DNA from: a virus
Reading direction: 5' to 3' (one strand)
DNA length: 62,730 bases
IMG/VR virus record: IMGVR_UViG_3300028829_003283
Coordinates: 1-62,730 of that record
The notes under the pieces: model-generated
Seen by the model: only the letters and a program-made list of their open reading frames with translations
What the model was told of the DNA's origin: nothing
Database searches by the model: none
Made by a program: the position numbers and the translations under genes
Shown here: positions 5,979 to 12,166 of the stretch, piece after piece
How positions within the stretch are numbered: position 1 is the stretch's first letter
How the letters are laid out: each line of letters starts with the position of its first letter

Positions 5979-6857
5979 ATGCAGTTAGTAGATACAGTAG
6001 GTAATACACCACTATTGAAGTTCCCACTTGATGGTGGAACAATATGGGGTAAGGCAGAGTTTGTGAATCCTGGTGGTTCAGTTAAAGATAGACCAGTAGC
6101 ATATATTCTCAAGCAGGCACTATGTGATGGTACATTAAAGAAAGGTGATACCATCATTGAAGCAACCTCTGGTAATATGGGAATCTCACTATCTATGTTT
6201 TGTGCTAATATGGGATTCAATTGTATTATTGTAATGCCATCCAATATGAGTACCGAGCGTAAAGTTATGATGAAATCATTTGGGGCAAAACTAATTGAAG
6301 TTGATGCTGGTGATTTTGACGGTGCTATTGAGTTGAGAGATAAGATGGCAAAGGAGAATGGCTATTTTAACTTTAACCAATTCCACAACAAACTCAACAT
6401 TGCATCACATTGGTACACTACTGGATTTGAGATTTGTAGAGATATAGAATTTGGTACTCAGGTCGATGCGTTCGTAGCTGGTACAGGTACTGGTGGTACT
6501 ATTATGGGAGCTGGTAAGTTCCTTAAACAAATGTACGATGATTGTAAGTTAGTAGCATTGGAGCCAGCAGAATCACCTGTTATGTCTGGTGGTTGCCCTG
6601 GTCTGCATGGTATTCAGGGTATTGGTGATGGTAGTAAGTTTCTAGTTGATTTAGATATCTTAGATAGAATCGAAATCGTATCCACCCAAGAAGCAAAAGA
6701 TAAGGCAAAAGAATTGGCAAAAGAATTTGGATTATTCATTGGATTTTCCGCTGCTGCTAACTATCTTGTAGCTGAACGATTGGTTAAGGAAGGGTATGCG
6801 AAAAACGTTGTTACGATTCTATGTGATAGAGGAGAACGCTACTTCAGTTGTATGTAA
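5979..6857 (+). CDS. cysK: cysteine synthase (O-acetylserine sulfhydrylase)
   Basis: PLP-dependent β-replacement enzyme making cysteine from O-acetylserine and sulfide. All family signatures are present. These are NPGGSVKDRP with the PLP lysine at residue 36, TSGNMGIS near 63-70 (substrate loop), and the phosphate-binding GTGTGGT near 168. GIQGIGDG, GFSAAANY and the CDRGERY C-terminal signature are also present. At 292 residues it is close to the usual 300-310. The active site looks intact, so activity is expected. It lies 2 bp after the upstream gene, in a phage early operon; it may supply cysteine or sulfur during infection. CysK and CysM cannot be told apart by eye. Confidence 0.93.
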   Translation: MQLVDTVGNTPLLKFPLDGGTIWGKAEFVNPGGSVKDRPVAYILKQALCDGTLKKGDTIIEATSGNMGISLSMFCANMGFNCIIVMPSNMSTERKVMMKSFGAKLIEVDAGDFDGAIELRDKMAKENGYFNFNQFHNKLNIASHWYTTGFEICRDIEFGTQVDAFVAGTGTGGTIMGAGKFLKQMYDDCKLVALEPAESPVMSGGCPGLHGIQGIGDGSKFLVDLDILDRIEIVSTQEAKDKAKELAKEFGLFIGFSAAANYLVAERLVKEGYAKNVVTILCDRGERYFSCM

Positions 6858-7677: not shown

Positions 7678-7763
7678 GGCCGGATGGTGGAAGTGGTAGA
7701 CACGACAGACTTAAAATCTGTTTCGCCGAACGGTGAGTGTGGGTTCGAGTCCCACTCCGGCTA
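7678..7763 (+). tRNA. tRNA-Leu (TAA)
   Basis: 7-bp acceptor GGCCGGA/TCCGGCT (first pair G-T), anticodon stem ACAGA/TCTGT with loop CTTAAAA (anticodon TAA), long class II variable arm, and T-arm GTGGG TTCGAGT CCCAC. Discriminator A. CCA is not encoded. Confidence 0.96.
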
Positions 7764-7789
7764 CTATAAATAATACAACAATATCTATT

Positions 7790-7924
7790 ATGCTTTATGT
7801 ACAATATACGATGATTGGTTTGGTAAGTATCGCATTAGGTTATATGCTTTATGAAATGGTTAAGACTTTCTACTATGAAATAAGAGAATCAATCCGAACT
7901 AATCGAAACAACCGAAGGTGGTGA
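7790..7924 (+). CDS. small membrane protein (44 aa)
   Basis: MLYVQYTMIGLVSIALGYMLYE is one transmembrane helix, followed by a basic tail (SIRTNRNNRRW). I start it at 7790; a longer version would start inside the tRNA-Leu gene. It lies between two tRNA genes. Confidence 0.55.
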   Translation: MLYVQYTMIGLVSIALGYMLYEMVKTFYYEIRESIRTNRNNRRW

Positions 7925-7934
7925 TATAATAAAT

Positions 7935-8008
7935 GCACCCGTAGCTCAGCTGGATAGAGCAACGCACTTCTAATGCGTAGGTCATAGGTTCGAATCCTAT
8001 CGGGTGTA
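7935..8008 (+). tRNA. tRNA-Arg (TCT)
   Basis: Acceptor GCACCCG/CGGGTGT, anticodon stem ACGCA/TGCGT with loop CTTCTAA (anticodon TCT, reads AGA), T-arm ATAGG TTCGAAT CCTAT. Discriminator A; no encoded CCA. Confidence 0.96.
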
Positions 8009-8021
8009 CAAAATTTCTTAT

Positions 8022-8097
8022 GGTGTTTATAGCTCAATCGGTTAGAGCGCTGGCTTGTGGAGCCTGAGGTTGTGAGTTCGATTCTCACTAAACACCC
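8022..8097 (+). tRNA. tRNA-His (GTG)
   Basis: Acceptor GGTGTTT/AAACACC, anticodon GTG in loop TTGTGGA, T-arm GTGAG TTCGATT CTCAC. Discriminator C73 is typical of bacterial tRNA-His. The anticodon stem has one T-T mismatch. It is the only cluster member without U34. Confidence 0.93.
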
Positions 8098-8170
8098 ATT
8101 GAGTTCTTTGACTTATCGGATTTTTTTTGCGAGTTCTGCACCTCTACAGATTAAAAGGTGTTTTCAACAT

Positions 8171-8244
8171 GGGAATGTAGCTCAGTTGGTTAGAGCAGGA
8201 CTCTTATACAGTCAAGGTCATGGGTTCAAGTCCCGTCATTCCTA
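8171..8244 (+). tRNA. tRNA-Ile (TAT)
   Basis: Acceptor GGGAATG/CATTCCT, D-arm GCTC/GAGC, anticodon loop CTTATAC giving TAT (reads AUA), T-arm ATGGG TTCAAGT CCCGT. The anticodon stem GGACT/AGTCA has a G27-A43 mismatch. Most bacteria read AUA with a lysidine-modified CAT anticodon, so the genomically encoded TAT is notable. Confidence 0.85.
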
Positions 8245-8249
8245 CAACC

Positions 8250-8323
8250 GACCTCTTAGCTCAGCTGGTTAGAGCATCTCACTTTTAATGAGAGGGTCCT
8301 GGGTTCGAGTCCCAGAGGGGTTA
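8250..8323 (+). tRNA. tRNA-Lys (TTT)
   Basis: Acceptor GACCTCT/AGGGGTT (two wobble pairs), anticodon stem TCTCA/TGAGA with loop CTTTTAA (anticodon TTT), T-arm CTGGG TTCGAGT CCCAG. Discriminator A. Confidence 0.95.
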
Positions 8324-8326
8324 CTT

Positions 8327-8406
8327 GCCGATGTGGTGGAATTGGTAGACACGCTAGTTTTAGGCACTAGTTCTTCGGAGTGAGAGTTCGAGTCTCTCCA
8401 TCGGTA
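8327..8406 (+). tRNA. tRNA-Leu (TAG)
   Basis: Acceptor GCCGATG/CATCGGT, anticodon stem CTAGT/ACTAG with loop TTTAGGC (anticodon TAG, reads CUA), class II variable arm, T-arm GAGAG TTCGAGT CTCTC. It lies 3 bp after tRNA-Lys. Confidence 0.95.
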
Positions 8407-8411
8407 CATAT

Positions 8412-8486
8412 GCATCCTTAGCTCAGTTGGTTCAGAGCATCTCGTTTACACCGAGAAGGTCGTTGGTTCGAACCCAACAGGATGTA
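8412..8486 (+). tRNA. tRNA-Val (TAC)
   Basis: Acceptor GCATCCT/AGGATGT, anticodon stem TCTCG/CGAGA with loop TTTACAC (anticodon TAC), T-arm GTTGG TTCGAAC CCAAC. The D-loop has one extra base. Confidence 0.95.
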
Positions 8487-8504
8487 CTTCACTAAATAAA
8501 TTTC

Positions 8505-8516
8505 AATATTTATATA
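8505..8516 (+). promoter_or_regulatory. TATTTATA-class (putative late) promoter
   Basis: AATATTTATATA with the core TATTTATA at 8507-8514, 31 bp before the gene at 8546 and with no TTTG element at -33. The same core recurs in front of several late genes. Confidence 0.5.
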
Positions 8517-8545
8517 ATAGTAATAATACTAATAAACAATAATTT

Positions 8546-8824
8546 ATGAATTACAAAATCGCAAGAAGATTGTACCAAGCTTTGGAAGCAAAGTACACAG
8601 CAGAGATAATGGATGCGAGAGCACGATTATCAGTTTACTTCGAATCCTCTGTAGGAATCGGAGAACACCCACAACTTACTGAAGAGATTGACAACTTAGT
8701 TGACCAACTCGCAAACGCAACGGATAAATTGGAAACACTTTCTAACAACTTCTCAAAGGAGTATGGTAGTGATATTCCAACTACAGTCGTTGACAATGAA
8801 AAGAAGGAGTTGATTAACGGGTAG
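8546..8824 (+). CDS. hypothetical coiled protein (92 aa)
   Basis: Helical throughout (AEIMDARARLSVYFE; LVDQLANATDKLETLSNNF), acidic and soluble. It sits inside the tRNA cluster behind a TATTTATA motif. No family is recognised. Confidence 0.7.
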   Translation: MNYKIARRLYQALEAKYTAEIMDARARLSVYFESSVGIGEHPQLTEEIDNLVDQLANATDKLETLSNNFSKEYGSDIPTTVVDNEKKELING

Positions 8825-8841
8825 GGTGAGTACGACTCATC

Positions 8842-8926
8842 GGAAGATTGGCAGAGAGGTCGATTGCACTGGTCTTGAAAACCAGCGTACAGCAATGTAC
8901 CGTAGGTTCGAATCCTACATCTTCCG
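8842..8926 (+). tRNA. tRNA-Ser (TGA)
   Basis: Acceptor GGAAGAT/ATCTTCC, anticodon stem CTGGT/ACCAG with loop CTTGAAA (anticodon TGA), class II variable arm, T-arm GTAGG TTCGAAT CCTAC. Discriminator G, as in tRNA-Ser. Confidence 0.96.
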
Positions 8927-8963
8927 CAAAGGTTATCGTTCTTTACATAAAAAAGGAAAAGCT

Positions 8964-9313: not shown

Positions 9314-9728
9314 TTCTTTGAAATAATAGAGGCACCTGAAGTATTGGCCATATGAATGGTGAGTATATGACCGAATAATCCCTAACGGAAGAAGGGGATA
9401 AGGTAAACCTGACACTGAACACGTTTCAGTTCAATTGCTCAAGGGAGTGATTGAGTTCCGACAGGAAAGAAGGTGGTAAGTTAGGAAAGAATCAAACAAC
9501 CGATTCTTCCAAGAGCATTGTAAGTACCCGAAAGGAAATCTTACTTTATGACCGAATAATCCCATAATGGGGGATAAGGTACGACTAAAGCTGTTGTGGC
9601 GCTACAACGAGATTAACCATCTTGAGTAGAACTCGAAATAATAGTAGAGTTAGTTGGTATGCGGTAGATAAAACCATAAACTAACTTTTCAGAATTGGTA
9701 TATTCTGATATACGTTCCTCTATTTTTT
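9313..9728 (+). ncRNA. large structured non-coding RNA (about 415 nt)
   Basis: No plausible protein frame exists here. The ends pair: AATAGAGGCAC (9325-9335) with GTTCCTCTATT (9714-9724), one mismatch, followed by a T-run. Inside, I can draw many local helices. They include CCTG/CAGG enclosing two hairpins (9408-9475), GGAAAGAATC/GATTCTTCC (about 9484-9510), and GTAAG/CTTAC with a GAAA tetraloop (about 9520-9544). GTTGT/ACAAC (about 9593-9608), GTTAG..GGT/ACC..CTAAC (about 9649-9685) and TCAGAAT/ATTCTGA (about 9689-9709) complete the set. One module, TATGACCGAATAATCCC paired with GGGATAAGGT, occurs twice (9366-9405 and 9547-9581). It has its own promoter and sits beside tRNAs, the context of the GOLLD and ROOL RNAs of phages, although it is shorter and I do not recognise its sequence. 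Confidence 0.8.
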
Positions 9729-9777: not shown

Positions 9778-10032
9778 ATGAAATGGGATACGGTACATAT
9801 TAGTGATAAGATACACTTTCTGAAGGATGTGATGGATAACTCCACACAGGACACAGAGCACGATATGCACATTGTAAACGCATTAATTACAGGTTCTCAC
9901 AACACCTTTAGTGGTGATATGGGATTTGAAATACAAATACATCATATGAATTATATGAGAGAGTTATGGGATAATCACATCGTTACTCAAAAAGATAGTT
10001 CAGTGATTAACAAACTGCGAGAGAAGAGTTAA
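9778..10032 (+). CDS. hypothetical protein (84 aa), probably leaderless
   Basis: 84 residues, histidine- and methionine-rich (DTEHDMHIVNALITGSHN; IHHMNYMRELWDNH), with no assigned family. Its ATG lies at the predicted transcription start, so translation would be leaderless or start at an internal ATG (9829). The last 16 bases are also the 5' part of the first tRNA-like element. Confidence 0.6.
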   Translation: MKWDTVHISDKIHFLKDVMDNSTQDTEHDMHIVNALITGSHNTFSGDMGFEIQIHHMNYMRELWDNHIVTQKDSSVINKLREKS

Positions 10033-10087
10033 GAGAAACTCGCTACACATCCAGTGTAGAGAAGTTGGGGCAGTTCCAACCTTTCGC
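10017..10087 (+). ncRNA. tRNA-Gly(UCC)-like cloverleaf, copy 1
   Basis: 71 nt with exact tRNA connectivity. The acceptor is GCGAGAG/CTTTCGC (7 bp), then a 2-nt linker. The D-like arm is GAGTT AAGAGA AACTC, followed by one base. The anticodon-like arm is CTACA with loop CATCCAG, giving UCC at 34-36. A 4-nt variable region precedes the T-like arm GTTGG GGCAGTT CCAAC. U follows at position 73. GlyRS identity features (G1-C72, C2-G71, U73, C35, C36) are present. The D-loop GG and the T-loop TTC are absent, and position 33 is A, not U. The RNA overlaps the end of the upstream gene. Confidence 0.8.
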
Positions 10088-10093
10088 TCAACT

Positions 10094-10164
10094 GCGGGAA
10101 AAGAGTTAAGAGAAACTCGCCGTACTTCCAGTACGGAGATGGTGGGGCAGTTCCACCTTCCCGC
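10094..10164 (+). ncRNA. tRNA-Gly(UCC)-like cloverleaf, copy 2
   Basis: Second 71-nt unit, 77 nt downstream of the first. The acceptor is GCGGGAA/TTCCCGC and the D-like arm is identical to copy 1. The anticodon-like arm is CCGTA with loop CTTCCAG (UCC, with U33), and the T-like arm is GGTGG GGCAGTT CCACC, followed by U73. Acceptor, anticodon-like and T-like stems differ from copy 1 by compensating changes, whereas loop sequences are kept. Both units are flanked by AACT and TCAA. CCA is not encoded, as in the canonical tRNAs here. Confidence 0.82.
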
Positions 10165-10185
10165 TCAAATTTTAATTCATACGAA

Positions 10186-10344: not shown

Positions 10345-10520
10345 ATCCATCAGATAAAGAAGTAGAACAAGCAATTGATAGAACACAAATTCTCTATAAC
10401 TCAATTGTGGAGAATGTTGTACGTCATAGTGTATATAAGCTGGATAAGGGGTTTGCTAAACACATAGATACTGCGTTAGAATCTCTTTCAAAAGCAAACA
10501 CAATTATAAGTAATGTATAG
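10341..10520 (+). CDS. hypothetical helical protein (59 aa)
   Basis: 59 residues from MNPSDKEVEQAID, helical and soluble. I choose the ATG in the ATGA overlap; an ATG three codons upstream is possible. It overlaps the cytidylyltransferase gene by 8 bases. Confidence 0.7.
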   Translation: MNPSDKEVEQAIDRTQILYNSIVENVVRHSVYKLDKGFAKHIDTALESLSKANTIISNV

Positions 10521-10914
10521 TAAAGGGATGTTAGCTGGTAACTTTGATGTGATACATCCTGGTTACATTAAGATGTTTAAAGAATGTAAAGAGGTGTGTG
10601 ATAGGTTGATAGTATTCCTACATACAGACCCATCCATTGAGCGACCAGATAAACTCAAACCCATATTGAGTGTGGATGAAAGAGTAGAAGTTTTAGAATC
10701 GTTGCGGTATGTTGATGATATACAAACATATACATATGAGAATGAGTTGTATAAGTTGATTGAACTTAACTCTCCTGATATTAGATTCTTAGGTGATGAT
10801 TACAAAGGTAAGACTTATACTGGCTACGAACTGAATACACCCATCCACTATCTAAATCGAAATCACGGTTGGAGTACCACCAAATTTAAAACCCTAATTG
10901 CACAATCACTATGA
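10513..10914 (+). CDS. cytidylyltransferase-like nucleotidyltransferase (133 aa)
   Basis: Small Rossmann-type nucleotidyltransferase of the TagD/HldE class. The nucleotide-binding signature is GNFDVIHPGYIKM (residues 9-21), with the family HxGH altered to HPGY. DPSIERPDKLKPILSVDER gives the substrate loop and ER pair, and WSTTKFK near the C-terminus matches the STT-R motif. Length (133) fits a single domain. The known family transfers CMP or AMP to phosphorylated alcohols or sugars; the substrate here is unknown. It overlaps the next gene by ATGA and shares an operon with methylglyoxal and thymidylate synthases. Confidence 0.85.
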   Translation: MYSKGMLAGNFDVIHPGYIKMFKECKEVCDRLIVFLHTDPSIERPDKLKPILSVDERVEVLESLRYVDDIQTYTYENELYKLIELNSPDIRFLGDDYKGKTYTGYELNTPIHYLNRNHGWSTTKFKTLIAQSL

Positions 10915-11282
10915 AGTTAGCAGTAATCGCACATGACGGTAAGAAGGCAGATATGGTATCGTTCGTAATGAAACGATTACCATTCTTCAAACGTAAGGAT
11001 GTACAGCTCGTAGGAACTGGTACTACTGGTACTATGATTATCCATGCAGGTCTAAAGGTGGAGAGAGTAGCATCAGGCCCAATGGGTGGTGATGCAGAAA
11101 TTGGTGCGATGGTGACCAGAGGTGAGATTGATGGGGTAATCTTCTTTAGAGACCCATTAGATAAACACCCGCACGATGTAGATATCTCAATGTTGATGAG
11201 GTTGTGTGATGTACACGAAGTACCATTAGCTACCAATTACAAATCAGCACATATTATGATTAAGTATTTTGAAAAAAAATGA
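10911..11282 (+). CDS. mgsA: methylglyoxal synthase
   Basis: Lyase converting dihydroxyacetone phosphate to methylglyoxal and phosphate. The family signature runs through the whole protein: IAHDGKK (H8, D9, K12), GTGTTG (35-40), and SGPMGGD (55-61) with the catalytic Asp at 61. IFFRDPL (77-83) and HPHDVD (86-91), with H88 and D91 matching the active-site His and Asp of the bacterial enzymes, complete it. At 123 residues it lacks the C-terminal extension of the 152-residue E. coli enzyme, but no active-site segment is missing. ATGA overlaps on both sides place it in one operon with the cytidylyltransferase and ThyA. Confidence 0.93.
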   Translation: MKLAVIAHDGKKADMVSFVMKRLPFFKRKDVQLVGTGTTGTMIIHAGLKVERVASGPMGGDAEIGAMVTRGEIDGVIFFRDPLDKHPHDVDISMLMRLCDVHEVPLATNYKSAHIMIKYFEKK

Positions 11283-12166
11283 ATAAATTAGATAAACAAT
11301 ATCAAGAACTACTAATGACCATACTTGAGTATGGGGTAGATAAATCAGATAGGACTGGTACAGGTACTAAGTCCATCTTTGGTTATACCATCCGACACAA
11401 TATGGAAGATGGGTTTCCTCTACTAACCACAAAGAAGATGGCAGTCAAAACTATGATGACTGAGTTGAAGTGGTTTTTAAAAGGGGATACCAACATCAAA
11501 TATTTGGTAGATAACGGATGTAACATTTGGAATGGTGATGCCTACAAAAACTACATTGATAAGTTACCAGGAGATACGGATGTTTTTGATATTCTCAAAA
11601 GAGATGAGTTTATTGAAAAAATCAAAACCGATGATGAGTTCTCAAAGAAGTGGGGTGAGTTAGGTCGTATCTACGGAGCGCAGTGGAGAGATTGGGAAGG
11701 GTTTGACCAGATGGGTAATCTAATCAACCAACTAAAGAAAAATCCTGATTCAAGACGATTGATGGTTAGTGCGTGGAATGTTCCAGAGATTCAGTTCGTA
11801 GTACTACCACCATGCCATTACGGATTCCAATGTTATGTTGCCGATGGTAAACTATCTCTGATGTGGAACCAGCGTTCGGTAGATACGTTCTTAGGATTAC
11901 CATTCAACATCGCATCGTATGGTACACTACTCCTGTTACTATGTGAAGAAACTGGATATCGTCCTGGTCATTTGATTGGTAACTTAGGGGATGTACATCT
12001 TTACAACAACCACTTAGAACAAGCCAAAGAACAACTCAGTAGAGATGGGTCAGATACACTACCCGATATCGTATTGGATAATATTGATGTTCTCAATGGT
12101 GAGTTTGATTACACCATCTTAGGATACTCACCAAGCCCCGCAATCAAAGCACCATTAAGTAATTGA
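11279..12166 (+). CDS. thyA: thymidylate synthase
   Basis: Folate-dependent enzyme making dTMP from dUMP. DRTGTGT near residue 25, the catalytic cysteine C179 in LPPCHYGFQCY, WNQRSVDTFLGLPFNI, and the C-terminal GDVHLYNNH and YSPSPAIKAPLSN are all family hallmarks. The length of 295 is typical, with an insertion near residues 95-130. A complete enzyme supporting phage DNA synthesis. It overlaps mgsA by ATGA. Confidence 0.97.
   Translation: MNKLDKQYQELLMTILEYGVDKSDRTGTGTKSIFGYTIRHNMEDGFPLLTTKKMAVKTMMTELKWFLKGDTNIKYLVDNGCNIWNGDAYKNYIDKLPGDTDVFDILKRDEFIEKIKTDDEFSKKWGELGRIYGAQWRDWEGFDQMGNLINQLKKNPDSRRLMVSAWNVPEIQFVVLPPCHYGFQCYVADGKLSLMWNQRSVDTFLGLPFNIASYGTLLLLLCEETGYRPGHLIGNLGDVHLYNNHLEQAKEQLSRDGSDTLPDIVLDNIDVLNGEFDYTILGYSPSPAIKAPLSN

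Follow-up and report, generated by a model that had tools for sequence, protein, structure and literature searches.

Two tandem tRNA-like units in the window, i.e. the whole 62.7 kb stretch of viral DNA that was analysed, belong to a family of undescribed altered glycine tRNAs, which covaries in its stems, keeps the identity elements of glycyl-tRNA synthetase (GlyRS), has lost decoding features and has a re-wired elbow, and which is genetically linked to the DNA-modification gene mom, often lying inside it. Each unit is probably a dedicated non-translating glycyl-tRNA giving glycine to Mom, with charging and transfer as predicted steps. We also consider aminoacyl-tRNA-dependent DNA modification fairly probable as the wider principle, in which the phage would have a tRNA set aside for the purpose, in some cases encoded within the gene of its partner enzyme; the host would glycylate this tRNA, which would act as donor for adenine hypermodification by Mom.

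The window is part of the genome of a large marine phage whose terminase is T4-like; judged by this protein, Microcystis phage Mel-JY01 and Flavobacterium phage immuto are its closest cultured relatives, at 56% identity. The two units are located on the same strand as an array of ordinary tRNAs, about 1 kb downstream of it, and the features are as follows.

7678..8927, plus strand: array of eight ordinary phage tRNAs, upstream of the units, none of them a glycine tRNA
10017..10088, plus strand: tRNA-Gly-like unit 1, with 7-bp acceptor, D-arm of 5 bp with AAGAGA, anticodon arm of 6 bp with ATCCA, T-arm of 5 bp with GGCAGTT, and U73; R2 78.7 bits
10031..10036, plus strand: D-loop AAGAGA of unit 1 (positions 15-20), A18 and G19 invariant across the family
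10050..10052, plus strand: anticodon-like UCC of unit 1, C35 and C36 invariant
10069..10075, plus strand: T-loop GGCAGTT of unit 1 (G54 G55 C56 R57 G58)
10094..10165, plus strand: tRNA-Gly-like unit 2, plan as in unit 1, with loop TTCCA; R2 82.2 bits
10108..10113, plus strand: D-loop AAGAGA of unit 2
10127..10129, plus strand: anticodon-like UCC of unit 2
10146..10152, plus strand: T-loop GGCAGTT of unit 2

Each unit is 72 nt long (71 nt and U73), with a start-to-start distance of 77 nt, and has the elongator-tRNA layout of 7-bp acceptor, D, anticodon and T arms, 4-nt variable loop and discriminator. Folded singly, units 1 and 2 formed the cloverleaf at -24.9 and -31.9 kcal/mol (z -4.2 and -4.35), and none of 200 shuffles was as good. 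The covariance model R2, built from Mom-embedded elements only and containing no sequences of the window clade, returned exactly two matches over the 62.7 kb, which were the two units (82.2 and 78.7 bits; E 2e-19 and 2e-18, rough values from a short calibration), and matched none of the eight normal tRNAs. The folds, the shuffle test and the R2 matches thus bear out the two tandem cloverleaf units proposed in the earlier note, with sequence and spacing as described there. Both were missed by ARAGORN and by the Rfam tRNA model (RF00005, even at E≤5), as had been anticipated for standard tRNA finders; Rfam has no family for them, and blastn against cultured phages returned no homologue. The anticodon-like arm does carry UCC, but the arm plan first assigned to it had to be revised to a 6-bp stem, in which 32-38 is a covarying Watson-Crick pair, and a 5-nt loop N33-N34-C35-C36-A37, with A at position 33 in unit 1 and U in unit 2.

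Elsewhere in the window, a manA-RNA-like motif was present at 9366-9716 in two tandem copies (TATGACCGAATAATCCC ... GGGGATAAGGTA), 181 nt apart. The second copy scored 29 bits against Rfam manA (RF01745), under the gathering score of 55, and the motif was not found in the relatives L006, L008, L013 and L050 at E≤0.01. Metabolic genes flank the RNAs (5979-6857 and 10513-12166) and encode a PLP-dependent enzyme of the PALP family, cytidylyltransferase-like and MGS-like proteins, and thymidylate synthase.

Further copies were obtained by scanning IMG/VR with a first pattern of the three loops at fixed spacing, then with three relaxed patterns, in each of which one loop was unconstrained, and a broader one, plus one scan of GTDB genomes. 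The family comprises 98 distinct sequences, all 72 nt long, in viral contigs and in genomes of Planctomycetota and Elusimicrobia; the hosts look like Bacteroidota and Planctomycetota. The acceptor ends and U73 were fixed in most search patterns. C35 C36 were present in all matches of the scan with the anticodon left free, A18 G19 in all matches with the D-loop left free, and G55 C56 in all matches with the T-loop left free; as the part left free differed from scan to scan, the patterns alone do not explain this conservation. Chance matches of the scans were dropped on the basis of pairing (L001, L111, L114, L122, L123, L126, L128 and L131).

In the 53 non-redundant sequences, 98.5% of the cells were paired and 364 double changes were counted against 91 in shuffles, with both-sided changes somewhere in 18 of the 23 pairs; when partners were shifted by one column, pairing fell below 50%. 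The compensating stem changes earlier pointed out between the two units are therefore seen across homologues, which keep the stems, C35, C36 and U73. Loss of these features in related phages, which the earlier note had named as grounds for refutation, was thus not observed.

The bacterial GlyRS identity set as reviewed in PMC9976931, i.e. G1-C72, C2-G71, U73, C35 and C36, was present in all 98 sequences, the acceptor ends and U73 being imposed by most patterns and C35/C36 not imposed in one scan. From the (G10-Y25):G45 combination, G10 and Y25 were likewise found in all and G45 in 90, and the wobble base varied only within NCC. Decoding features were not kept along with these identity elements. 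No conserved U stands at position 33 (U33 in 46/98), and 32-38 is a standard pair (C-G, U-A, A-U or G-C) in 92/98, leaving an anticodon loop that is not 7 nt. A8 replaces U8 in 96/98, and tRNA models do not recognise the units as elongator tRNAs. CCA is encoded in 19 of the 98 elements, and in 17 of the 41 embedded copies.

The D-loop and T-loop are not canonical, as the earlier note had it (A18 and G55 in 98/98; 54/58 as G/G in 96 and T/A in two), but the elbow is substituted, not lost. On comparison of the sequences it is best described as re-wired, A18/G19 with G55/C56 replacing G18/G19 with U55/C56 (G19 and C56 being kept), and G54/G58 replacing T54/A58. Two elements outside the 98 are informative. 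L269 (1501-1573), found via Mom alone on a 175 kb Mom-bearing phage contig, combines G18/U55 with G54/G58 and seems to be a compensatory form of the swap, and in L272 A18/G55 goes with A54/A58; positions 18 and 55 thus seem to change as a pair. With A18/G55 for G18/U55, the re-wired elbow offers a natural test of how a tRNA is held together.

Intermediate forms, and other tRNAs with the same swap, were also observed. L061 (5896-5967) combines features of the family with those of ordinary tRNA-Gly(UCC), with U8 and A14 kept, an A18/G55 elbow and an ARAGORN call of tRNA-Gly, and L270-L271 are near-canonical like it. Phage tRNA arrays (L074 1-7459, L101 10818-13241) hold Cys, Lys and Glu tRNAs with A18/G55 beside normal-elbow tRNAs, and near-identical 17-tRNA arrays of two Planctomycetota genomes (L382, L383) have Gly(GCC) and Arg(GCG) tRNAs with A18/G55. 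Because of these arrays, the A18/G55 swap alone is no mark of Mom use, and an alternative elbow may be more widespread among mobile tRNA arrays.

Clustering of neighbour proteins revealed one gene recurring in 48 loci, nearly always right at the element. It encodes Mom (PF25680, above the curated cut-off, E down to 2e-41), and the structure predicted for the linked protein has a GNAT fold (pLDDT 91) with Mu Mom (8bv8) as the best PDB match. The element adjoins mom in 67 cases, at the 3′-end in 62 and at the 5′-end in five, always in the same frame (frame 0). The mom frame is open through the entire element in all of the 62 3′ cases, a statement that covers these elements and not all 67; in L079, where the element is 5′ of mom, a stop occurs at the third codon of the element. 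Since the frame is in phase and open through these 62 elements, the final part of mom in these phages also encodes the RNA. A protein-coding origin of the conserved sequence was rejected on two grounds, the covariation of the stems and the stop codons that interrupt the mom frame in about half of the free-standing elements.

Large phages carry free-standing elements, often paired and far from mom, as in G018 with elements at 104.3-104.5 kb and tandem mom genes at 33-34.5 kb, and in Planctomycetota loci no other tRNA lies near the element. In the Mom tree, embedded elements fall into at least four separate lineages and free-element genomes into two more (rows L059, L073 and L096, labelled embedded, were ignored because the protein there is not Mom). 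Because the linkage spans several Mom lineages, function is favoured over hitch-hiking. Two mom paralogues lie close together in the large marine phages G018, G023, G024, G026, G028, G030, G031, G034, G050 and G051, some of which have a third, more distant one.

Mom was present in 13 of the 16 element-bearing records of ≥100 kb, with two or three mom genes each, against 2 of 14 large cultured T4-like phages (Fisher p 7e-4, uncorrected for kinship), which were used as controls because the IMG/VR terminase relatives were too short as matched negatives. Among the Mom-less records, G021 shares its element with Mom-bearing G030 and G053 shares its elements with Mom-bearing G051; both may be fragments. 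One control of the 14 gave an R1 match, Aeromonas phage AS-yj, the one with a strong Mom, and the match is a mildly altered tRNA-Gly. All nine element-bearing bacterial genomes carried Mom, in numbers of about 1∶1.

Starting from Mom, an R1 match was found in 6 of 50 IMG/VR records picked by Mom homology, mostly fragments, and in five of the eight of ≥90 kb, comprising G104 and G106 at >60 bits, a weaker swapped-elbow match in G103, and two canonical tRNA-Gly; in several large Mom-bearing contigs the element was not found. Searching 392 Planctomycetota genomes by Mom alone returned, apart from three genomes already known, five new mom genes over the cut-off, and a tRNA-Gly-like element lies directly behind four of these five (L387, L391, L392, L400), L386 being the one with no element behind mom. 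The element of L387 begins 4 nt past the mom stop. The other three (L391, L392, L400 at 2083-2148) have a reduced 66-nt element in the mom 3′-end, with A-G in the D-loop, T-loop TGCGACC or TGCGAGC, an ACC-A loop and U73; positions 8-9 are missing and the anticodon loop has 6 nt. No such element was found in 13 cultured Mom phages including Mu, and a 16.9-bit match upstream of mom in Pseudomonas phage JD024 was rejected as chance, overlapping the com reading frame. As Mu does without it, the element is dispensable for Mom, and a Mom lacking the element presumably uses host Gly-tRNA or another donor.

For the phage of the window itself, the link to Mom is drawn by homology. No mom was present in the 62.7 kb fragment, nor in any of its nearest relatives, which are themselves fragments of at most 96 kb. 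In the fragments closest by element sequence (L002, L005, L006, L008, L009, L013-L016), the DNA upstream of the element amounts to about 10 kb or less, and longer relatives have mom about 70 kb upstream. The absence of mom in the window clade is uninformative for this reason, and the phage's own mom would be located in the missing part of its genome.

A donor pair is the simplest reading, because a glycine-adding GNAT is tied to a glycine-identity tRNA unfit for decoding. Aminoacyl-tRNA is used by other GNAT-fold enzymes, i.e. Fem ligases and L/F-transferase. Host GlyRS would charge the element RNA with glycine, the ribosome would use this RNA poorly, and Mom, as a GNAT-fold transferase, would move the glycyl group to adenine N6 in phage DNA. 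Direct acyl transfer would yield N6-glycyl-adenine, and Swinton and colleagues reportedly identified the Mu Mom product in 1983 as N6-carbamoylmethyl-adenine, a glycinamide. That the known product needs a rearrangement after simple aminoacyl transfer counts against the donor reading; the free amine of N6-glycyl-adenine could attack C6 via a five-membered ring to give the glycinamide, which would block host restriction. In large marine phages such as that of the window, free-standing RNAs, usually pairs, would act in trans; Planctomycetota and certain other phages have the RNA at the end of mom itself. A glycine donor outside translation had been among the roles suggested from the two units, and it has now gained a named and genetically linked acceptor system in Mom. 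If true, the coding frame of an enzyme would contain the tRNA on which that enzyme draws, and this would be, to our knowledge, the first tRNA with the job of modifying DNA.

The source of the Mom glycinamide has been a standing question ever since Mu DNA was first seen to carry the modification, and published statements name acyl-CoA donors, i.e. glycyl-CoA (PMC7824862) or acetyl-CoA (PMC11340752). A glycine-identity tRNA without decoding features, linked to or nested in mom in several lineages, points to glycyl-tRNA and makes this directly testable. No literature linking Mom with glycyl-tRNA was found, in a search without preprints and with few subscription papers.

The RNA might act as a regulator or processing signal of mom, for example by RNase P cleavage or charged-tRNA sensing, with the free copies as trans-acting relics or sponges. 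The 62 elements in frame inside the mom 3′-end and the tight regulation of mom expression in Mu would suit this role, which is nevertheless unlikely: the RNAs of large phages lie tens of kb from mom (in G018, mom at 33-34 kb and elements at 104 kb), the element may be either 5′ or 3′ of mom, and pure regulation needs neither GlyRS identity nor U73. Even less probable is a guide or substrate of Mom, by targeting or by modification of an adenine in the AAGAGA loop, with no glycine transfer. Invariant D-loop adenines and co-occurrence with Mom agree with it, but the exclusive glycine identity (C35, C36, G1-C72, C2-G71, U73) and the CCA encoded in embedded copies would stay unexplained. GlyRS identity without decoding features would also fit a decoy of GlyRS, T-box riboswitches, anticodon nucleases or glycyl-tRNA-acetylating toxins, and phage tRNAs with anticodon-loop changes escaping nucleases are known; the earlier note had proposed the first three targets, yet nothing found points to them, and as a decoy gives no reason for the Mom linkage or for a place inside mom in several lineages, we regard it as very improbable. 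A divergent but otherwise ordinary tRNA that reads glycine codons in translation, which the near-canonical L061 and L270-L271 and the wobble variation confined to NCC would allow, is hardly credible given the scattered U33, the Watson-Crick 32-38, A8, the altered elbow, and Planctomycetota loci with no other tRNA nearby.

Read as a glycine donor for Mom, the family can be placed beside known systems. Canonical bacterial tRNA-Gly(UCC) shares the cloverleaf, G1-C72, C2-G71, C35, C36, U73 and G10-Y25 with G45; the family differs in A8, A18/G55, G54/G58, the Watson-Crick 32-38 and absence of a U33 rule, and in being missed by ARAGORN and RF00005. Mom of phage Mu (PF25680, PDB 8bv8) belongs to the same protein family as the linked loci and produces glycinamide on adenine, whereas Mu and the other cultured Mom phages searched have no such RNA, and the donor is described as acyl-CoA. 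The CmoX/CmoY pathway to 5-carboxymethylcytosine glycine amide also puts glycine on phage DNA (PMC12783734), but by an ATP-dependent ligase with free glycine, on cytosine in place of adenine and with no tRNA. TacT, a GNAT toxin acetylating glycyl-tRNA-Gly, is a precedent for a GNAT reading glycyl-tRNA via U73 and G71 (PMC9976931), although it acetylates the charged glycine and has no DNA acceptor. The non-proteinogenic tRNA-Gly of Staphylococcus aureus, which serves the peptidoglycan bridge through Fem ligases, is likewise of glycine identity, acts outside translation and is used by GNAT-related aminoacyl-tRNA-dependent transferases (PMC9976931). It is chromosomal and near-canonical with the cell wall as acceptor, whereas the RNAs described here are phage-borne, with a re-wired elbow and a 5-nt anticodon loop, and are linked to a DNA-modifying enzyme.
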